The notes: generated by a model not told the origin, from the sequence alone. A DNA stretch of 64,000 nt from Williamsoniiplasma luminosum (GCF_002803985.1 NZ_CP024963.1:248001-312000); one strand, 5' to 3'. Numbered from the stretch's first letter, positions 6,200 through 23,403 are shown. A program made the numbers and translations.

Positions 6200-9100
6200 C
6201 TAGAGAAGTGATTTTGGTTTTTGCATTCGAGTATATGTTGAAATTGCAAAATTTATTAAGATAAAAAATGACAACAATGAAGTAATAACAAGGAATACAA
6301 AACCAAGGGTTCATTGAAATGATATTACAAGATTGAAATAAAAGATATCTTGAATTGTAGGTCCCATTTGTCCTAATAAAATCCAGACAATACCAACAGA
6401 TGTTAAAATAGCAAACATCATCGAGACTAAATAACCACTAATTAAATATTTATTAATTTCGCGTTTTTTATATCCAATGATTTTAAACAATAAAATCGTA
6501 TTTCTGTTTTCCAACAAAATAAGAATTGTAATCAACATTGATACAAGAACAGCAATCGCTCCAGACATCACAATAGCAATACCAATCATTCCAGATAATG
6601 GTCTAGTCAATATGATTTGAGCTTCTGTCATTTTACTAAAAATCATCACATAAGCACCAACGTTGTTAATGTATGATTCAAAATGATTTTTTAAATAATA
6701 ATCATTAATATTAGAACCAGCCTTATCCGAGCCATTAGTTGATTTATAAATTGGTAATGTTCAATATTCTAATTGCATTGGAATAATTGATTTTGAAAAA
6801 TAAGAATTAGTCACATAAACAGGATTTGCTTGGTTTATGTTCTTTGCAATTTCGCCAAATTTTTCACTAATATGTTTCTTATCTTGAGTTATTTTCTCAA
6901 GATAAGAAAATAAACTTGCTTGAGGTACATAAACAAATTGAAAACTAGAACTATCACTGTAGAGTACTTTGTTTACTCTCGCTATAACATTATGATAAAT
7001 TGCTTCTGGTTCGGAATTAGACCCATCAGGTTGACCAACTCCAACATTTACTTTTACAACAAATTCGTCTCCAATTTTTAAATTATTGCGTTTAGCATAG
7101 GAACTATTAATGCTTGCATTTAAAGCTCACTGGTTTTTTAGGGTTGTTTGTTCACCATTTATCAATTTTCTCTTAACTACGCCCTCGCTGTTAACATCGT
7201 GTTCGAAATGCCTTCTTGAAAATTCGTCATTTTCAAACCCAATAAAAGTTATAGTTCTTTCAGATCGATCAACACCAACTTTTGCGTAAACACCCATTTG
7301 TTTGCCTTGATTAACATTTGAAGCTTGGCGGCTACCAACAACCTTACCAAACATAATATTGATTCCATCAAATGTCGGAAATTGTTTTCTGAAATTTATT
7401 AATTTATCGATCAAAGGTTTTAAAAGGTTCTTAATTTTAAAAGTTTCAGAACCTTTGTTTTGAACAAATATTGAATCCATTTGATTTAATATTTGTTCAT
7501 AATTTTTTGGGTTTTCAGAAACGTTATTTAAAAAAGCTAAGACTGTTGCTTTGGGGATATAAGCCTTATCCAATCCATTTGTTAATGTTTCCATTATTTT
7601 ATCTGGTGCTTGTTTTCAAAAAACCTTGTCTAATTTTTTATATTTTTCAAGGTCTTTGACATCGATATTTTGATAGGAATCAATTATTGGTTTTTCTTTT
7701 TCATATTCAACAAATTCAGGTAATCAGTGATTGAATTTTATTGATTTATAAGGGGCGTTTCATTGTTCATAGCCATAATTGAAATAATTGACAGAGGTGT
7801 TGAATTGAAAGGCAAAGAAAAGGATTGTAAACGAAAGGGTTAGCATTATATAGGAAATAAGGTTTTTGTATACATTTTGGAAAGCAAACGAAAGCCCCAG
7901 TCTAACCTTACTGTTAAATCTTCTTGTGAAAAATTTTAATTTCATTTGAACATTTGAAATGCTTTTGACAACACCCATTCCAGATATTTTTAAAACATCC
8001 GAATTCATAATCAGTAAACTTATAACAAAGAAACCAATAATGCTAACTCCAAACAAACAGATAATTGAAATGATAAATGGGAATCCCATTGTCCAAAAGC
8101 TATGATGAAAATTTAAAATATCATAAGTCATCTGAGTTAATATGCTTTGCACCATTAATGCCCCAAAAGTACTCAAAGAAAAACTTATTAAAGTTGGAAA
8201 TATTAATGCTGATGTATTTAATATTGATAATTCATAATTTCTTATTCCCATGGATTTTAAGACAAACAAACTTTTTTGTTGAAGTAAGATAATTTGTTGA
8301 CTGATAAAAAAGAAAATTAAAAACAATAATATTAAGACAAAAATAATAACAACGATTGAGACCAATATAACCAGCTGCATCATTGAAGTCGTTGTAAAAC
8401 CCAGATCTTCATGTGCTCAAAATGTTGATGATTGAAGTCCTGATCGGTTTAGACCAGGTTTTAAATTCGTCATCATATTTGTTTCAAATCAATTAGAAAA
8501 ATATTTTTGCCCTTCTTCGACATTGTTTTTATTTGCAAAATGCAAATGAAGTTGGTTGCTAAAAACATTTTGAGCTGAATTTCAATAGTTTTGAAATGAA
8601 TTATTTAAGTGAGGTATTCTGACCTCATATAATAGTTTATTTACAGTTTGCAAAGGGACATAAAGATGCAAATCAGTTGGACGGTATCAAATATCAGGGT
8701 TTAAAATAGTTCCGGCAAAAACCATTTGATAATCTTTTGTACGATCAGCATACCAAGTATTTACAGAATATTTTTCTCCCAATTTTAAGTTCAAATCATT
8801 TGCAACTCTTGGTTGGAGATAGAAAAACATTCCAAACTCTTCTTTGGTTCTATCAAGATAATTTTTAAATTGTTCGCTTTGAAAATTAATTGAAGATTGA
8901 AAATTAACTCGATTAAAATCATTGCTTTGAAACAAACTAAAATTTGTTATTTTGGTTTCGCCTTCTGGAAAATTAACGATTTGTTTTACTATTTCGTCTC
9001 CGTAATAACCTTGATGAATATCACCCATCTTTTCATTTGTTGCCAAATATTCCAACGATCCATTTCGAGGAACATTTTTCATTTTTACATTAAAAGCGTT

Positions 9101-9706
9101 TTGACGATAAAATTGAAAATAAAAGTTTTCAATTTGTTTTTTGGTTGAGTTGCTATTTAAATATTGATTAAGAATAAAAGCCAATTGAATATTGTTGGTT
9201 TTAAATTTTCATTTGAACACATAAGCTATATGATCAACATATTTATTTATCACTTCCAGATTAGAATCCAATTCTGTTAAGTATCCTTGCTTTAAATGCG
9301 AGATATTTCCTGAATTAGATGCAAAATATTTATATATATTTTTAATATTTTCTTCTGGTAGTTGTGGGGAATTAAACCTTTTTAAACCATTTCAAAACTC
9401 TCCTTCTTTGTTGTATTCGATAGTGTCAAGAAAGAAGTGATATATTGGTAGATCTTCTTTTTCTTGTTGAGTATAGTCATCTTTTTCCGGAACCATAACT
9501 GTATAAGGTTCTGGTTTGAAAAGGGCATTTTTGGATGTTGTCAAACCAATAGAATCATCAACATCCTTAAAGAATGATGAAGCAAAAGAAATTAAACCAA
9601 GTGATAAGGATGCTGCAAAAGTTAGAAATAAAGTAAATGTTAAATATAGTGGTCAATAAATAATGAAATCTTTTATTGATTGCTTGAGAAATAATTTCAA
9701 CTTCAT
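6200..9706 (-). CDS. Large FtsX-type ABC transporter permease, paralogue 1
   Basis: A 1168-residue integral membrane protein. Layout read from the translation: a transmembrane helix at about 13-40, a large extracytoplasmic region, a first FtsX-like block of several helices (about 442-590), another helix near 610-635, a second large external region, and a final FtsX block (about 1020-1155) with the sequence LLENRNTILLFKIIGYKKRE typical of such domains. This is the architecture of large bacterial FtsX/MacB-superfamily permeases, which couple an ATPase to lipoprotein release, peptide export or wall-enzyme control. The ATG follows a GGGG-containing site and gives MKLKLFLKQSIKDF, shared with both paralogues. 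No ATPase gene is adjacent. Substrate unknown. Confidence 0.85.
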
Positions 9707-9837
9707 TACCAATACCCCGCACTATTTTTGCATTAAACAGTTCTCTTTTATAATATATCAAAACTAAGGTAAATTCCCAAATCACCATTTTGTAAAAATA
9801 TCAACACAAAAATTAAAATAGGTTATATGGATAAAAG

Positions 9838-12800
9838 CTATAAATCGACAAAAGCATATTTAGGTTGTTGTATTTTTGTGAAGTAGGATATTGCTGAGTT
9901 TATTAAGATGAAAAAGAGAAGAATTGATGCGATCACAATTCCAATAAATCCTAATCCCCAACCAAAATTTAGTGGAATATCAAATCACAATGTTTTCATA
10001 ATTTCCGCCACTACCTTTTCTAAAGTTATTCAAGCAAGAAGGATGGCTGTGAAAACCCCGAGAGTTATTGAAACTAAATATCCACTGATTAAGTAGAGAT
10101 TAATTTCACGCTTTTTGTATCCGATAGTTTTAAACATTAGAATTGTTTTTTTATTTTCTAAAAGAATCAGAATTGTCAGAATTATTGAAACCATCATCGC
10201 GATTGATATTGATGCAATAATAGAAATTCTCATTGTTCCAGTTAATGAAGTCATCAATGTATCCAAACGACGAGTTTCTAAATTGAAGATCATAATTCCT
10301 TGGTTGATGCTATTTAGGTAGTCTTCAAAAAGATTTTTCTTATAATAATCAAAGATGCTAGACCCAGCATCTGCACCCGTTTTATTCAAAATAGGCAATG
10401 TAAAATATTCCAACTGCATTGGCAACATTTGTGTTGAAAAATAGGAATTACTTACATATTTTTGTTGTTTGATATTTGAAACAATTGACTCAAAAAATTC
10501 TTGAAGCGATGGATTGTCAGAATTTGTTTTGGCAAGATATTCAAACAAACTTGATTGAGGAACATAAATATAAGAATCAAAAATTGTATCACTATGCATT
10601 ATTTTGTTTAACCTTAATGTGATCGGTCCTAAATTATTTGTATTAATTACAAACTCATCACCAATGTTTAACTTGGTTCTTTTGGCATAAGTGTTTGAAA
10701 CGTTTGCATTGATTGCTCATCTATTTTTTTGTTGTTCTAATTCTCGATTGTCTGAAGATGTTCGTTCAATCAAACCATATTTATCAAAACCATAATCAAA
10801 ATGGTTTTGAGAATATTCATCATTTTCAAAGGCTAATAAATTCGTACGAATGTTCAACAGTTTATCGTCTCAACCATTAACATAAACCCCCATTTGTCTT
10901 CCTGATTCGATACTTGGTTTCTTGTAAGAACCAACAACCTTTCCAAACATGATGTTCATTCCGTCAAAGAGAGGATTTTCAATTTTCAATAAGATAAATC
11001 GATTTATTAATTTCATTATTGAATCAGCATTCATATGTGGTTTGTCCACTGGATTTTTTGGGAAAATAGATTCAATGATTTTTTTAATTTTGTTATAATA
11101 GGCTGGATCTCTGATCAATCTATTTAAAAAATCAGATACCGTTTGTTTGGGGATATAGGCATTGTGCATTTGCGTGGTTAAAACATTTAATATTTCGCTG
11201 GGTTTATTTCAAAATGCATCATCTAATTTGATCATTGCATTTAACTCGTTAACATCAACAGTTTCGTATGCTGGAATTACTTCTTTTTCACCATTATTTT
11301 CAATCAAATTGTATAAAGGCAGAGCTGTGTTAAGTTTGATTGATTTATAAGGTTCGTTTCATTTTTCATAACTTGTTGAAAATGCTGTCAGGGAATTACT
11401 AAATTGAAATGAAAAGAAAATGATACTAAAGGAAATCGTTAACATGATGTAAGAAATGATATTTTTATAAATATTTTTAAACGTGAAAGCCAGACCGATT
11501 CTAGTTCGACTATTGAATTTATAAACCATTGATTTTAACTTCATTTGCATTTTAGAAATATTTTTAGCAACACCCATGCCAGATATTTTTAAAATTTTGG
11601 AATTGATAATAAAGAAATTAATAGTGAAAAAACCAATAAAACCAGCTATAAATAAGCCCATAAAAGCAATGATAAAAGTATTGTCGATTGTTCAAAAACA
11701 ATGATAGAAATTTAAATAACTAAATGAAATGTTGATAATCGTATTTTGAATGATTAATGCACCAAAAATACTCAAAGTAAAACCGATTAAAATTGGAGTT
11801 AGTAGAGCAAATGTGTTCAATATTGATAATTCAAAATTATTTACTCCCAAGGATTTCAAAAAGAATAAATGTTTTTGTTTAAGTAAAATAATTTGTTGAC
11901 TAATAAAAAAGAAGGTTAAAAAGAGAAGTGCAAAAACAAACAAAATAATGATTGCCGAAACAATTATCGACATTTTTCACATGGTTCTTTTTAACATATT
12001 TAAATCTGTGTCTGCTCAGGCAACAGATGATTGTAATTTATGATCGCTCTTAATGGGTGAAAGCATGTTTTTTTCAAATCAGTTTGAAAAAAACTCTTGA
12101 CCTTCTGCAACATTATCAATATTTGTTAAATATAAATAAAGTGAGTTATAAAAGATTGGTTTTGATGATAGTCAATATTTGCCAAATTCTGTAAATTCTG
12201 TTGCATCTTTGTTTGATTCATACAATATTTTATTGATTGTTTGAATTGGAGAATAGAAGTTAAAAGTCTTTTTATTTCAAGCAAGATCCTTGTTTAAAAA
12301 TGTGCCTGCATAAAGTAGTTCATAGTTTATTTGGGAATTATTTGTTAGAACACCAATTTTGTATTTCTTACCTAATTCTAAATTTAATCAATTAGCAGTT
12401 CTTGGTTGGAGATAGAAAAACATCCCAAATTCTGGTTTGGTCTTATCAATATAATGACTAAATTTTTTGTTTTTAAAGTTGATTGTATTAACGTAATTAA
12501 TCTTGTTAAATTCATCACTTTGAAAAAAACGATAGTTTAATATTTTCGCATCGTGATTACTAGTGTTTGGAATTTCTCCTGCAATGTTTAATTCATCAGC
12601 AAGGATATTTCCATAATAACCTTGATAGAGATCGCCCATATTTTTAGTTGATAGTAATGTCTCCAACGTTACTTTTTGTTCAATGTTTTCAAATTTTATA
12701 CTAAAACGTTGATCGCGATAAATTGGGATATTAAATTTAGGAAGACCTTCTCCTGATTTTGCATTTTGTTCAACATATTTTTTAATGATAAATGCCGATT

Positions 12801-13365
12801 GAACATTTGCAGATTTATATTTATATTTGAACATGAATTGAATATAATCCACATACTTATTTAACTGGTCATAATCAATTTCAGCCTCATTTAATGAGAA
12901 ATTTAAGTATGGGATGGTTTCAATATCATCTTTGATGTGAATGATATTACCTTCGTGATAAGCAAAATATTTATAGATTGTTTTGATTATGTCTTGTGGT
13001 ACTTTTGAGATATCAAATTTTTTGTTTTGATTGGTTACATTTTTGTTATTCGTGTATTCAATAGTTTCAAGAAAAAAATTATAGATTGGTAGTGTAGTTG
13101 GTTCTTGTTGGGCAAAAAGATTTTCTAATTCTGAGCTGTGTTCTTGTGGTGGTCCAACCAAATACTTCTCTGGAGTGAACTTAGCATTTTTGTCTAACTT
13201 TAGACCGATTGAATTTTTAAGATCACTGGTGAATAAGGAGCCAAACGAAGTCAAACCCAAAGATAAGGAAATGCCAATGATTAAAAACAAAGTAAAGGTT
13301 AAGTATAATGGCCAATACACAATAAAATCTTTAATTGATTGTTTAAAAAATAACTTCAATCGCAT
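9838..13365 (-). CDS. Large FtsX-type ABC transporter permease, paralogue 2
   Basis: A 1175-residue paralogue of the genes on either side, with the same helix / external domain / FtsX / helix / external domain / FtsX order. The N-terminus MRLKLFFKQSIKDF is nearly identical to its neighbours, as are FMFFYLQPR- and YQGYYG-containing segments of the external domain and the GMGVAKNISKMQMKLKS segment after the first FtsX block. The ATG is preceded by GAGGTGAT on the coding strand. Only 131 bases, with no clear terminator, separate its stop from paralogue 1, so the two may share a transcript. Function beyond ABC permease is not visible. Confidence 0.85.
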
Positions 13366-13423
13366 ATTAAATCACCTCACTTATTTTTTTATAAAAAAGG
13401 CTTTCTCTGATTAAATTTTATCA

Positions 13424-13469
13424 AAAAAACCCTAAAAACACATATCACCGATGTGTTTTTGGGGTTTTT
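13424..13469 (-). terminator. Terminator after permease paralogue 3
   Basis: A long hairpin (AAAAACCC-T-AAAAACACAT / ATGTGTTTTT-G-GGGTTTTT) located just past the stop of the 13482-17039 gene on the minus strand and followed there by a T-run. It separates that gene from paralogue 2. Confidence 0.8.
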
Positions 13470-13481
13470 ACATTTAAGAAA

Positions 13482-16400
13482 CTAGAGATCTTCAAATGTG
13501 TGTTTAGGTTGTTGTCTTTTGGTGTATGTCGAGATTGCGGCATTGATTAAGACGAAAAATGCTGTGATAGAAGTAATTAAAATCGCGATAAACATTGGGG
13601 TTCACGTAAATGATAATTCAAGATTGAATCAAAACAAGCTTGCAATGTCATTCTTCATGACTTCTAATAAAAATCACACAATTCCAATCGCGGTTAAAAC
13701 CGCAAACGCCATGGAGACAAAATATCCGCTAATTAAATACTTATTAATTTCACTTTTTCGATACCCGATTGTTTTAAATAAGAGAATTGTTCTTCTATTT
13801 TCTAACAAAATCAGAATGGTTACTAAAACAGAAACAATGATTGCAATTGCAGAAGACATAAAAATTGCTATTTTCAAAATACCAGCAAATCCTTGTGTTA
13901 CTTCTTCCATTTTTTGAGTGACGACACTAAATATTAAAACATTTTTAATGATGCTATTTAGGTACCTTTCAAAAGTATTTTTTGAATAATAATCTTGAAT
14001 CTTCTCACCATTAGAATGAAAAATCGGTAATGTAAAATATTCTAATTGCATCGGAAGATTTTGTTGTGAAAAATAAGAATTGCTAATATAAACAGGTTCA
14101 GCTTTTTTCATATCTTTAACAATTTGACCAAATTTTTGACTAATAATTTGCTTATCTCGATTTATTTTTTCGAGATAAGCAAATAAATTTTTTTGAGGTA
14201 CATAAATAGAAGATTCTTTGCTCAGAGTGTTTTTTACTATTTTATTTACTTTTAATTTTATGTTGTGTGCGATGGGTTTAATCGCACCTTTATCTGTTTT
14301 GAAACCAATATTGACTCCAATATCTTTTTGATCTCCAACTTTTAAATTAGCTCGCTTGGCATAAAAATTGGAAATGCCAACTTTTAAAACGGGACTAGAT
14401 TCAAATGTTGTATCAACATTTGAATCTGTTTCTGCAACATTGTATTCGAAATGTTTTTTTGATTCTTCATCATTTTCAAATGCAATTAAATCAACATAAA
14501 GACTGTCCTTTCGATCAAATCCTCTAGTCGTAAAAATACCTCTTTGTTTACCTTCTGGAATCGTTTTTTGGTTAATCGAACCAACCACATTTCCAAACAT
14601 AATATTAATACCTTTAAACGAAGGAATTTGAAGCCTTAATGTTAGCAATTGATCAATAAAACTTTTGAACGGATTTTTGTTTTGAGTGTTTTTTGCAAGA
14701 TTAGATTCTGCAAAAAATGAATTTGCTTGACTTAAGATTTGATCATAATATTTCGGCTTTTTAATCACTTCATCTAGAAATCAAAGAACTGTTTCTTTGG
14801 GAATATATGTGCTTTTCATATCTTCAATTTTATTCAATTTTTCAAGCACAGTGCCACCAGTTGGATTAGTTCAAAAATCTTTGTCTAGTGGTTTGAAATA
14901 TTTAATTTCATTCACATCAATAGTTTTATATGAATCAATTAATTTGTCTTCAATATTAAATAAAGGCAATGAGTGATTAAGCTTTATCGATTTATAAGGT
15001 GCGTTTCATATTTCGGGAGCATTATTAAAAATTTTAATTGAGCTATTAAATTGAAAGGAAAATAAAAAGACAGCAAATGAGAAAGTTAAAATTACGTAAG
15101 AAACAATATTTTTATAAACGTTTTGGAAAGCAAAGGCAAAACCAAGTCTAAGTTTAGGATTTCATCCTTTGATTAAAAATTTCATTTTCATTTGAAAATG
15201 CGAAATACCTTTGGCAACACTCATTCCAGATATTTTTAATGCATCTGAATTTATTATCAGCAAGCTGATAATAAAAAAACCAGCAAAACAAACCAACATC
15301 AAACCAACAAAAGCAATAATAAATTCGAATCCAAATGTTCAAAAACTATGGTAATAATTTCAAAACTCATAGACAATATCCATTAAGATGCTTTGGACCG
15401 CCAACGATCCAAAAATACCGATAGTAAAACTGACCAAAGTCGGGAGTATTAGAGCAAACGTTGTTAAAGTTGATAATTCATGATTCCTAATTCCAATTGA
15501 TTTTAAACAAAATAAATTTTTTTGCTGCAACAAAATAATTTGATGGCTGATAAAGAAGAAAATCAAGAAAAGTAACATCAAAACAATCACAACAATCACG
15601 ATTGTAATCCCAATAAAAACTCTCAACATGACTAACGCTGATGTGTTGGTATCAGTATCTGATCAAACGGTTGCTGATTGAAGTTTTGGTGCATTTCCAT
15701 TAGCGTTTACATGTTCCATTAAATAGGTTTCAAATCAATTTGAAAAATGACCTTGTCCTTCTTTTGTATTTTTACTATTTGGAAAGAGTAAATAAATTAT
15801 ATTGGTGATAGCGTTTGGAGCTGAATTTCAATATTTTTGAAATTCAGTTTGATTAGTATTTGTGTTTTGTTCTGCTGATGTTTCATAAAATATTTTATTT
15901 ATAGTTTGTGCTGGGGTATAAAAATCTCATTCATTTGGAAGATATCAAAGATCGGGATTTAAAATGGTTCCTGCATAAAGCAATTCATGGGTTTTTCTTT
16001 TTTCATCAGTTCCGACAAATACTTTGTATTTTTCTCCCAATTTAAAATTGGCTTCATTCGCACTTTTTGGTTGCATGTAAAAAAACATTCCAAATTCTTC
16101 TTTGGTTCTATCAAGATAATTTTTAAATTGATCACTTTCAAAATCAATTGATGTTTGAAAATTTATTCTGTTGAATTGGTTATTTCAAAATAATTTATAA
16201 TTAGGTATTTTCATCTCTGGGTTTTTTAAATCTGAAATTTTTTCCAGAATTTTATTTCCATAATAACCTTGGTGAATATCACCCATTTTTTCATTTGTCA
16301 CCAATGAGTCTAAAGAAATTTTTTGAGACATATTTTCAAGTCTTAAGTTTCCTTTTGATTGATGAATAAATTGAAAATAAAATTTATCTATCCCATTGTC

Positions 16401-17039
16401 GGTTTTCAAATCTTGTTTCAAATATTGATCAATAATAAAAGCCGATTGGATATTATTGGTTTTGAATTTTGCTTTAAAAATATGTGATATGTAATCAACA
16501 ATTTTATTCAATATGTCAACATTTTTTACCATCTGTTGATGACTCGGCGTATGAAAAATATTTGAAATAGAACTAAGTCTAACATCACTTTCATTTAATC
16601 GGACAATGTTACCACCATTATTAGCAAAATATTTGTATATAAATTTAAGAACTGGATTATTTTGGTCTTCTGCGGTTGTGATTGAGTCATGAGTTATAGA
16701 TAGTGATTTTATTTTTTCTCAAATCTCTTTATTTTCGAAATTGATTGCATCATAAAAGAAATTATAAATAGGAAGTGTTGATTTTTCTTCTTGGAAAAAA
16801 TCTTCATTGGCTTTTTCTTTTTCTTCAGGGATTGTATAGCGTTGAGCAACAAAACGAGCATTTGCATTATACTTTGAACCAAATGAACTTTCGATATCTT
16901 TTCCAAACATGGAAATAAAGGAAATTAAACCCAATGACAAAGAAATTGCAAATGCTAAAAATAATGTAAAGGTTACATAAAGGGGTCAATAGACAATTAG
17001 ATCTTTGAATGATTGTTTAAAAAATAATTTTAATTTCAT
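13482..17039 (-). CDS. Large FtsX-type ABC transporter permease, paralogue 3
   Basis: A 1185-residue member of the tandem set and the first in transcription order. It keeps the two-FtsX architecture: first helix near residues 13-40, first FtsX block from about residue 471 (LLFLIFFFISHQIILLQQKN), second from about 1060, and a short basic tail ending KRQQPKHTFEDL. The frame is open throughout when TGA is read as Trp; I checked 14769-15360 base by base and found no TAA or TAG. The ATG lies after AAGGGGTATTC on the coding strand. No cognate ATPase is next to it, so it must pair with one encoded elsewhere, if it works as a transporter. Confidence 0.85.
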
Positions 17040-20145: not shown

Positions 20146-21189
20146 TTATTTTCTATTTATCAGTAATGAAATCTTAATCATTGGAACCATTAAAACTTGA
20201 TTAACGGGATAACTTAATGCCCAAACAGAAATTCCATTATAAATAATTGAATAAACTCAACCGTTATCTCCTCAACTAGGTCCAAAAGCAGCTACTCAAA
20301 CAAAATATCCTGATATTGTTTGAACAATATAAATTCCTAAAAAAGTGAAAAAACCGACAATAATATAATTTAAATAACTAATGTAACCATTTTTGCGTGT
20401 AATCTTAAATTTCAACATAGAAATCATCCCTGGGATCATCATTGGAATAAAGTAATCCAATAAATATGATCATGGCGAAATGATTAAACCAGAACTTAAA
20501 AATAATAACGACATTAAAGCAGATGCACCCCCTGCTAAAATCGAAAGAACTGGTGAACAAACTACCCCAAGTGTAATTAGTGGTAAGTATTTTAAAGCAA
20601 TCCCGCCCCCATTTGGTAATTGGGGCATAAATTGTTCTGTGTAAGCAAACACAATTGTTAAGGCTGTGAACATTCCACATAAAACAACATCATGAATAGT
20701 TAGTTTTCTAATGCCGAATAACTTTCAACTTAAATGCCTTTTACTTTTTGCTCCTTTATTTGTTTCAAACACATAAATTAAGATTCCAATATTAATAACC
20801 ATTAGCGAAAGCACACTTAATAAAATGAATTGCATTTTATTATTAAGTATTTTATCTAAGTCGGCTAAAAACCAACTAATTGTAATTAAAATTCCGAATG
20901 CAAACGCAAAGGAAAATAGCATAATCGAAAATGTTTGGACATTTTCGAAAACCTGTGGATCGATAATATTAGTTCAAGATATTTCCATCACACTAAACAA
21001 GATCAATCCAACTAAAAGCATAACTGTTGTAATCAAAGAACAAATCATAGCTATTTTTAACAGTCAAGGTTTTTCACGAATTGGATGAATATGTACTCAT
21101 CACTTTTCTTTATTTGTTTGTGAATTTAATAAAAGTTTCACTTCTTCTTGTAAATCCGTTTGTACATTTTGTACTTTTTCTTTTTGCAT
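20146..21189 (-). CDS. thiT: Thiamine ECF transporter S component, ThiT-like, copy 1
   Basis: A membrane protein of 347 residues that should bind thiamine and dock to a shared ECF energising module not in this window. The last ~175 residues look like ThiT: LTIHDVVLCGMFTAL, the loop GGGIALKYLPLI, then IISPWSYLLDYFIPMMIPG, close to the family's SPW...LLDY region. The first ~170 residues, with about three helices, are longer than a standard ThiT of roughly 190 residues. A TPP riboswitch lies directly upstream, which supports a thiamine role. The ATG follows AAAGGAGA. Copy 2 at 21735 has the same layout. The thiamine assignment rests on the riboswitch and the ThiT-like motifs. Confidence 0.85.
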
Positions 21190-21225
21190 AAAAAAATCTC
21201 CTTTTGAGAGACAAAGAAAAAAACA

Positions 21226-21304
21226 ACTAATCTGACTCCCTCCGCTAGTATTAACTAGATCAGGTTCAAAGAGTGTTTCTCAAGCTTGTGCTACCTCTGT
21301 CATA
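21226..21304 (-). promoter_or_regulatory. TPP riboswitch controlling thiT copy 1
   Basis: On the minus strand the thi-box core is clear: GAGGTAGC, TTGAGA, TTTGAACCTGATCTAG, TTAATACTAGCG and GGAGGGAGTC, with TGAC/GTCA closing P1. The -10 sequence TATAAT lies at 21318-21323 (minus). Downstream, TCTC and GGAGA can pair and would bury the Shine-Dalgarno of thiT, which suggests translational control. The aptamer matches the known TPP class; the mechanism is inferred. Confidence 0.93.
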
Positions 21305-21409
21305 TATTTACGTATTTATTATATAACTTTCTAAACATTAGTGAGCAGGTAATGTTTGTTTTTTGGCTTTTTAAAAACAAATTTTCCAGTGTTGAATAAT
21401 GAGTAAAAT

Positions 21410-21712
21410 TTAATTGTTGAGACTTATGATAGTTTTAATAAGTGGTTGTTTGAATAGAAAATATCGAGACGACAAGAATCAAGTTCACAAAGCACCTCAG
21501 TATATAAGCCCAAAAATAATAGGCATTAAAACATGTAAATAAATTTGATTAAAACCACCAAATCAAATGGTTTCAAATGGTTTATATAAATGTATAATGT
21601 TCAAAAAACCCAGTAAAATAAGGCATTAATAAGATAAAAACAAATAAATCAAAGTGGTTGATTGATTATCAACCAAAAGATTTGATTGGCAATAAAAATC
21701 GTAAGAATTTTA
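21410..21712 (-). pseudogene. Remnant of a membrane protein gene, copy A (downstream of thiT copy 2)
   Basis: Minus-strand translation gives a C-terminal membrane-protein fragment, including CLILLGFLNII, NQIYLHVLMPIIFGLIYWG and a tail ending SLNN before TAA at 21410-21412. Upstream, the frame is broken by a one-base deletion relative to copy B at 22990-23305 and by a TAA in the continuing frame, and there is no start with a ribosome binding site. The two copies are clearly alike at the DNA level, for example around 21590-21625 and 23185-23215. I do not recognise the family. It may once have been the gene after thiT in a TPP-regulated operon. Confidence 0.55.
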
Positions 21713-21734
21713 GAAAAAAGTTTTGAATTTTTTT

Positions 21735-22769
21735 CTAAAATTTTCCTTTATTAACCAACAACGCAACCTTAATTGTTGGAACCATTATGATTTGGGTTAA
21801 TGGATAATTAAATGGTCAAATTGATAAGGCATTATAAACAACCGAATAAACAACTCCATTATTCCCTCAAGCCGGACCCCCAGCCATCGCCACTCAAATA
21901 TAATAACCAGAAAGTGTTTGAATAATGTAAATTCCTAAAAAAGTTAAAAAACCAACAATGATGTAATTTAAATAATTGATATAACTTTTTTTGGTTGTAA
22001 TTGTAAATCTTAAAATACTTACAATCCCAGGAATCATCATCGGAATGAAGTAATCTAAAATAAATGATCAAGGTGAAATGATCAAAGTTGATCCGACAAA
22101 TAATAGTGAAAGTAAGGCACCACAAATCCCAACAATAATTGAAAGTGCTGGTGAAATAGCAACACCTAGAATGATTAATCCTAAGTATTTAAAAGTCAAT
22201 CCACCCCCACCAACTAGCCCGGGCATGAATTGTTCTAAATAGGCAAACACGATTGTCAAAGCTGTGAAAACACCACATAATACGATGTCATAAACTGTTA
22301 ATTTTCTGAAGCCTAATTTAAGTCAAAAACCCCTTCATGTGATGCTTGTTTTTCTTTTTTGGACTTGATATTTTTTGAATATATAAATTAATATACCGAT
22401 GTTAATAATTGCTCCTGAAAGAATACTTAAAAGCATAAACTGCATTTTGTTGGTCATAATTTGCTCGATGTCAGTTAAAAATCAACTAAATGTAATTAAC
22501 AAATTAAAAACCAAACTTAATGTAAAAATAGCAATTGTCATTGTTTTGATATTTTCGAAAACTTCAATGTTTGTGATGTTGGTTCAAGACATTTTGAGTA
22601 AACTAAATAGAATTAATAAGCCCAGTATTGTGAGAAAAGATAAGAGAGAAAAACCAAAACCTATCTTAATTATTAATGGTTGTCAGGGTTTATGAATTCT
22701 TAATTTTTTAAACCTATTTCTTACGTCTAAACCTACTGGTTTTACAGTTTGTACTTTTTCTTTTTGCAT
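21735..22769 (-). CDS. thiT: Thiamine ECF transporter S component, ThiT-like, copy 2
   Basis: A 344-residue paralogue of the protein at 20146. Its first seven residues (MQKEKVQ) are identical, the next ~150 have diverged while keeping three helices, and the ThiT-like half is well conserved: KLTVYDIVLCGVFTALTIVF, GGGGLTFKYLGLI, IISPWSFILDYFIPMMIPG. It has its own TPP riboswitch, almost identical to that of copy 1. The ATG follows AAAGGAGA. The divergence between copies could mean different thiamine-related substrates (thiamine, its phosphates, or pyrimidine precursors), but nothing in the sequence decides this. The frame is intact with TGA as Trp. Confidence 0.85.
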
Positions 22770-22804
22770 AAAAAAATCTCCTTTTGAGAGACAAAGAAAA
22801 AACA

Positions 22805-22884
22805 ACTAATCTGACTCCCTCCGCTAGTATTAACTAGATCAGGTTCAAAGAGTGTTTCTCAAGCTTGCGCTACCTCTGTCATGT
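22805..22884 (-). promoter_or_regulatory. TPP riboswitch controlling thiT copy 2
   Basis: Minus strand, with the same thi-box core as the riboswitch at 21226 and only a few single-base differences over roughly 150 bases that run from the promoter region through the start codon. TATATAATAAAT upstream gives a -10 box. The thiT ribosome binding site again lies in a TCTC...GGAGA hairpin. Confidence 0.93.
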
Positions 22885-22989
22885 ATTTACATATTTATTA
22901 TATAACTTGTTCAACATTAACTAGTTGAACTGAGGTCCTTTTTTTAATTTTTTAAAGATTAATTTCTAATTGTCTATAAATAATGAAAT

Positions 22990-23305
22990 CTCAATTGGGG
23001 TTCAGTTATAGTGTTGATAAGCGTTTGAATTAAAATGAATATTAGGAGAGTGTATCTCTAACTCACAAAACATCTAAGTTATTTTTATACTTATGAATTC
23101 AAAAATAAATAAAGCTAAAATATGTAAATAAATTTGATTAGAATCACGCAACCAATTGATTTCAAATGGTTTATATAAAAATATAATGTTCAAAAAACCC
23201 AGTAAAATAAGGCAATAATGCGATAAAACCACAATAAACCAAAGTTTTTGATAGATTATCAACCAAAAACTTGATAGGTAATCAAAACCACTATAGTTTT
23301 AGAAA
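22990..23305 (-). pseudogene. Remnant of a membrane protein gene, copy B (behind orphan TPP riboswitch)
   Basis: Homologous to the remnant at 21410-21712. The best frame gives WFIVVLSHYCLILLGFLNII, then [13 protein letters not shown], and stops at TAG 23074-23076, earlier than copy A. The DNA similarity to copy A continues past that stop to about 22990. There is no start with a ribosome binding site between it and the riboswitch. It looks like the 3' part of a gene joined to a riboswitch by deletion of what lay between. Confidence 0.5.
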
Positions 23306-23326
23306 AAATTTTACAATTAAAACAAC

Positions 23327-23403
23327 TGATCAGACCTATTTCGCTAGTTGTTAATTAGATCAGGTTCAATTAGTGTTTATAAAATTTATGCTACCCCTAT
23401 CGT
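23327..23403 (-). promoter_or_regulatory. Degenerate, orphan TPP riboswitch
   Basis: Minus strand: GGGGTAGC, TTGAACCTGATCTA and CTAGCG remain, but the P4/P5 loop has an extra base (TTAACAACTAGCG rather than TTAATACTAGCG) and GGGA is changed to TAGGTC. GATAGG...TAGGTC no longer resembles the other two copies at P1. No intact gene lies downstream on the minus strand. Confidence 0.75.

Follow-up and report, generated by a model that had tools for sequence, protein, structure and literature searches.

Tandem TPP riboswitch-thiT units in Williamsoniiplasma luminosum: an old duplication with leaders probably homogenised after speciation

The 64,000-nucleotide stretch of Williamsoniiplasma luminosum DNA analysed here (the window) contains two minus-strand units in tandem, each made up of a TPP riboswitch and a gene for a ThiT-like S component. 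The leaders of the two units are nearly identical, the coding regions behind them have diverged widely, and the two parts support conflicting trees. The whole is probably best explained by an old duplication followed by later homogenisation of the leaders, with both transporters under switch control.

Two riboswitch-thiT units in tandem

The window comes from the 1.03 Mb genome of a small insect-associated mollicute whose genes use table 4 (TGA = Trp); in what follows, lum denotes its Williamsoniiplasma species and luc denotes W. lucivorax. The two units lie in the order B then A, with the following parts.

20146-21189, minus strand: ORF A, a ThiT-like S component of 347 aa (table 4) with a ~150-aa N-terminal membrane extension; PF09515 E 8e-14, 3rlb Z 19.4
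21163-21219, minus strand: expression platform A (linker, Shine-Dalgarno, start codon, codons 2-9), probable extent; UCUC/GAGA hairpin and linker/codon pairing predicted
21220-21308, minus strand: TPP riboswitch aptamer of unit A; RF00059 65.8 bits, E 1.1e-10
21735-22769, minus strand: ORF B, a diverged ThiT-fold S component of 344 aa (table 4), without a Pfam ThiT match; orthologue in W. lucivorax, support 100/100
22743-22798, minus strand: expression platform B (linker, Shine-Dalgarno, start codon, codons 2-9), probable extent
22799-22887, minus strand: TPP riboswitch aptamer of unit B; RF00059 64.5 bits, E 2.3e-10

Both aptamers exceed the Rfam RF00059 gathering score of 54.3 bits in the covariance-model search and are the sole Rfam TPP matches in the whole genome. 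Each directly precedes a gene of the thiamine-transport type, with a PF09515 match in A, and the preliminary description of two thiT-like genes each behind a TPP riboswitch is borne out by these scores and by the ThiT fold of both products. Judged from sequence, TPP binding and control of expression by the two aptamers are putative. The ORFs start ~30 nt downstream of the respective aptamer match and, because each contains nine in-frame TGA codons, both are fragmented under table 11. An upstream extension of the ORF A frame (20146-21303, minus strand), open through the aptamer from an internal ATG, is probably due to chance, a one-base indel closing the frame in B. A promoter scan gave matches no more numerous than those in shuffles, leaving separate promoters for A and B without support. 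Elsewhere in the window (6200-17039, minus strand), three successive ORFs of 1170-1185 aa appear by eye to encode large membrane proteins, probably a tandem paralogue array.

Fold, binding pocket and cargo of the S components

Copy A matches PF09515 with 52.6 bits against a curated cut-off of 25.8, and the profile also matches A of W. lucivorax and six of the six other relatives' proteins tested; copy B gives no match in either the window species (E up to 1) or W. lucivorax (E up to 10). A PDB sequence search with the single proteins returned nothing, and a profile search found ThiT and served to map the L. lactis positions given below. In structural models, the best fold match of the C-terminal ~190 aa is ThiT 3rlb for both proteins, with Z 19.1 for B, and the next fold outside ThiT is that of RibU (Z 16.6 for A and 17.0 for B). 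A and B therefore share the fold of known ThiT structures (PF09515; PDB 3rlb, 4muu, 4tkr) at Z 19, but both add a ~150-aa N-terminal membrane segment, which is common to Spiroplasma-like relatives. Within the window species, A and B are 47% identical over the N-terminal 150 aa and 65% over the ThiT domain (66% in the pairwise comparison of units), while between the window species and W. lucivorax identity is 86% for the B domain, 68% for the A domain and about 50% for the N-terminal parts.

The ligand-contact positions D84, Y85, Q125, G129, W133, Y146 and N151 (L. lactis numbering) are identical in A and B; among these, we take positions 85, 129, 146 and 151 to be ThiT ligand contacts. Beside the pocket, B has changes of its own (P43 to G, LVGGGGLTFKYLG). 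The thiamine-contact residues of L. lactis ThiT are W34, E84, H125 and W133 (PMC5037267), of which W133 is kept in A and B but E84 is replaced by D, H125 by Q and W34 by G, a pattern also found in Williamsoniiplasma and Spiroplasma-like relatives.

The genome encodes EcfT and a thiamine pyrophosphokinase (TPK), and on sequence evidence at least A is likely to carry thiamine. Both transporters would import thiamine through a shared ECF module, with TPK then making TPP. No ThiE was found in the genus by a search that was positive in 11 of 14 control genomes, so that HMP or thiazole, if taken up, could be turned into thiamine only by a route not yet known. PF08543 kinase matches, which are partial and to a broad family, were not accepted as ThiD.

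The preliminary description had also suggested that the transporters specialise, perhaps for different thiamine forms. In such a scheme thiamine would be imported by A, and the substrate of B would be some related compound such as thiamine phosphate or a B6 vitamer, with both transporters under TPP control; we consider this possible, if rather doubtful, and it may hold together with an old duplication and later homogenisation. The failure of B to match PF09515 in both species, when A and the other relatives tested do so, points towards it, as do the stronger constraint on the B domain between species and the changes beside the B pocket. The ligand of an S component can also differ from the one assumed, HmpT having been found to bind pyridoxamine (PMC4860826). 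However, A and B do not differ at the main contact positions, the best fold match of B is still ThiT, and with no ThiE found in the genus HMP or thiazole would be of no use for thiamine production by the known route. Specialisation is thus possible but unproven, B failing the Pfam profile while keeping both the ThiT fold and the contacts of A. If B does have a different ligand, it would represent a new S component for vitamins, controlled by thiamine.

Leaders and coding regions compared

When leaders and ORFs are aligned separately, the leaders of A and B agree at 137 of 142 positions (96.5%) and codons 1-9 at 26 of 27, while past codon 9 the remainder of the ORFs matches at 641 of 980 (65.4%). 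The contrast first noticed by inspection, of near-identical leaders and first codons with widely differing coding regions, is thereby confirmed, the two identities being clearly unequal. Identity between A and B falls from ~1.0 to 0.23 across some 40 columns right after codon 9, and a column-permutation test gives a best homogenised tract with sharp borders.

21168-21329, minus strand: homogenised tract of unit A, from a -10-like TATAAT region through the aptamer and start codon to ~codon 8; permutation p <= 0.0005, tree conflict
about 22748-22908, minus strand: counterpart of the homogenised tract in unit B

Gene conversion or strong constraint had been offered as causes of this contrast. In a comparison of 946 pairs of units, leaders were generally conserved for longer than proteins, and the single-copy orthologues of genomes G010 and G011 are 92% identical in the linker and 93% in codons 1-9 at 58% identity in ThiT, with similar cases in genus g9. 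The leader/protein contrast is therefore rejected as proof of gene conversion, since single-copy orthologues show the same, and for riboswitch genes that lack a sister species alike leaders with unlike proteins are a misleading sign of it. These orthologues, and likewise the tandem pair of genome G006 (below), which falls within the range of constraint, would suit a reading in which there was no conversion and purifying selection alone froze both leaders as the proteins evolved fast. We judge that reading unlikely: orthologous Williamsoniiplasma leaders have diverged, with linkers 72-81% identical between the two species, despite the conservation of the B domain, and both copies of the window species share states absent from either W. 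lucivorax copy. Thus the paralogous linkers of lumA and lumB are 98% identical at 66% ThiT-domain identity, whereas the orthologous linkers of lumB and lucB are 72% identical at 86%. Both of the proposed causes hold, constraint being general, as G010/G011 illustrate, but failing on its own to account for Williamsoniiplasma.

W. lucivorax likewise has two TPP-thiT units in the order B then A; its tandem spans two contigs, with an overlap of 99 identical nt within the A leader. In the ORF tree lumB and lucB form a clade with 100/100 support and, both copies being present in W. lucivorax, the duplication therefore predates the split of the species. The leader tree of the Williamsoniiplasma copies conflicts with the ORF tree and joins paralogues within species, the pattern by which gene conversion is recognised. 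Among the four copies, leader site patterns group by species (concerted) at ten sites, by copy (orthologous) at none and in the third way at none; over the whole alignment 69 patterns group by copy, 41 by species and 23 in the third way, with 26 concerted patterns inside the ORFs. The AU test rejects grouping by copy for the leader (p 0.032, or 0.021 with G003 as outgroup) and grouping by species for the ORF (p 1.3e-4 and 3e-5); the leader test that includes codons 1-9 is weaker (p 0.078). The high leader identity within the window species compares with 82-84.5% between species. The best reading of these sequences is that the leaders were homogenised after speciation, on a signal of ~ten sites and one sister species, with gene conversion as the most likely mechanism.

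Near-identical leaders could also be explained without conversion by a very recent duplication within the window species, the proteins having diverged fast under positive selection. This account is hardly credible, as lumB groups with lucB at full support, the ORF data reject lumA and lumB as sisters (AU p 0.001 or less) and W. lucivorax has both copies in the same order; it is already refuted unless there was transfer between species.

Expression platform and putative switching

The first codons are probably part of a translational switch, which would account for the reach of the homogenised tract into the gene; by analogy with relatives, alternative pairing of the linker probably explains this entry. 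The linker sequence of genera g7, g9, g3 and others is complementary both to the aptamer 5' strand and to the start codon with codons 2-4. The AUG lies within a predicted stem in 31 of 49 leaders (structures predicted per sequence, a leaning towards pairing), and start-codon hairpins in g7 and g3 reach z -3.8 to -5.3. Pairing of the linker with the aptamer 5' strand and its flank has a mean z of -2.4, with z < -2 in 31 of the 49, and across genomes the pair types are exchanged on both sides (G-C, A-U and U-A at position -1). This suggests that in the relatives there is a translational switch with the first codons inside the expression platform.

The platform architecture of A is the same as in the relatives, but there it is much stronger. 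The Williamsoniiplasma linker can close on the Shine-Dalgarno, through UCUC/GAGA in the window species; in W. lucivorax the pairing is AUCUC/GAGAU for A and CCUC/GAGG for B, and in G003 the stem has 12 bp. In the window leaders the switch pairings are not significant against shuffles (z -1.85 and -0.80 for the hairpin, about -0.1 for the linker with the 5' strand), and it is by analogy with the relatives that we infer translational switching in this species.

In the history that we propose, an ancestral TPP-riboswitch/thiT unit duplicated in tandem before the two Williamsoniiplasma species split, and the coding regions then diverged, A staying a recognisable ThiT and B leaving the ThiT profile yet remaining well conserved between the species. 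Later, in the window species, the segment from the -10 region through aptamer, platform, start codon and ~9 codons would have been homogenised between the copies, the simplest mechanism being ectopic gene conversion between the tandem repeats or their recombination over a short tract, and strong purifying selection would keep the module unchanged alongside conversion. Without TPP, the U/C-rich linker would pair with the aptamer 5' strand and leave the start open; with TPP, the aptamer would take the 5' strand and the linker would close on the Shine-Dalgarno and start region, so that plentiful TPP would shut off both transporters together.

In individual leaders of g7, g9 and g3 (e.g. L098, L010 and L092), the start codon and codons 2-4 make up the 3' arm of a strong predicted hairpin, and its 5' arm is also able to pair with the 5' strand of the aptamer, which would make this piece of the coding region part of the expression platform.

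A decayed third aptamer and repeated spacer patches

Upstream of unit B lies the remainder of a third aptamer, and the two spacers contain related non-coding patches. Neither feature is mentioned in the preliminary description, although both fall within the range it covers or at its edge.

23340-23401, minus strand: aptamer C, a third TPP aptamer, decayed and lacking a gene, upstream of unit B; nhmmer E 2.1e-6
23116-23318, minus strand: spacer patch R, separating aptamer C from unit B; repeat of R'
21527-21734, minus strand: spacer patch R', separating ORF B from unit A; 84% identical over 203 nt to 23318-23116

Aptamer C was recognised with an nhmmer profile of the relatives' aptamers from which the two window copies had been left out, and is absent from the RF00059 covariance-model results even at E up to 5. 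It deviates at 10 of 48 near-invariant columns (>= 95% conserved), where other sequences deviate at two or fewer; the UGAGA motif is lost and the pyrophosphate side is also altered. There is no ORF downstream, and no third aptamer or counterpart of C was found in W. lucivorax, where short matches were to known aptamers or AT-rich sequence. Aptamer C passes directly into R, as the stop of ORF B passes directly into R'. The simplest reading is that C would be the remnant of a third unit whose coding part has been deleted. A sequence that can still be recognised (E 2e-6) and a position on the strand of unit B, upstream of it, would be in keeping with a working riboswitch, having a changed ligand or acting as a tandem partner of B, but the altered near-invariant positions, including the UGAGA motif and the pyrophosphate side, the missing ORF and the failure to find a counterpart in W. 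lucivorax make such a function very improbable.

Inside R' there is a terminator-like stem (21675-21655). A second homogenised tract, 21678-21527 against about 23265-23116, is 75-95% identical over most of its length (permutation p <= 0.0005). Between the two homogenised patches identity is only 45-65%, and for this reason a single conversion event does not account for the spacer as a whole. No real match to R was found elsewhere in the genus, and blastn against W. lucivorax gave only short AT-rich words and nothing convincing. We rejected R as a mobile or dispersed repeat, there being two genomic copies only, and as a decayed gene, substitutions being even across codon positions (14, 15 and 18) with no long common frame.

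Comparison with relatives and known systems

The preliminary description had recommended a comparison of copy number among relatives. Of 60 genomes of the family, 52 contain TPP riboswitches, almost always a single one each, and two further Williamsoniiplasma congeners have one copy each; two are found in W. lucivorax and G006. In the latter genome, of genus g3, the second tandem TPP-thiT pair (L092:3299-4909) has its units 841 bp apart, leaders 95% identical and proteins 48%. The G006 paralogues form their own clade (99/95), and their duplication is therefore independent of that in Williamsoniiplasma. They show the same leader/protein contrast as the window pair, but their ThiT is short and without the extension. 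Constraint alone may suffice for the contrast in G006; gene conversion is not needed there, since the constraint seen in genus g7 yields similar numbers.

In Lactococcus lactis, the TPP riboswitch RSthiT precedes thiT, with a possible terminator U-stretch just before the start codon (PMC8862789). The window units have the same aptamer family and the same kind of gene behind it, but form a tandem of two with one gene behind each aptamer, accompanied by a third aptamer that has decayed, and the platform looks translational and in relatives includes the first codons. The term tandem riboswitch is used for aptamers that jointly control one gene (reviewed in PMC9481103); here several aptamers likewise lie close together, but each of the two units has an ORF of its own. 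Bacterial rRNA operons are an example of concerted evolution by gene conversion (PMC6002687), and in the window pair, too, copies within a genome are more alike than orthologues between genomes, although this is confined to the regulatory module and first codons and the remainder of the gene diverges. The window pair is a real instance of a type of evolution already known rather than a novel type of system, and offers a natural comparison in which a cis-regulatory RNA is held constant as the gene behind it diverges.

In a more far-reaching version, the riboswitch module from the -10 region to ~codon 9 would itself be the unit of concerted evolution, with the first codons part of the switch; conversion and selection would keep it identical across paralogues and leave the transporters free to change ligand. 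This would have taken place separately in two or more mollicute lineages, and copy B would be a TPP-controlled S component that has acquired a new ligand. Taken together, these propositions seem quite unlikely to hold. Among the papers searched, none was concerned with TPP riboswitches of Spiroplasma or of its relatives.

Two further loci in the relatives depart from the usual arrangement. In G024 (L093:2576-2672) an orphan TPP aptamer is followed by an ORF that by eye is transposase-like, with no thiamine gene. G028 carries an additional thiT without a riboswitch (L095:2109-3020), a few kb from its normal TPP-thiT locus, and by eye the frame of this additional gene is joined behind a segment resembling a transposase N-terminus.
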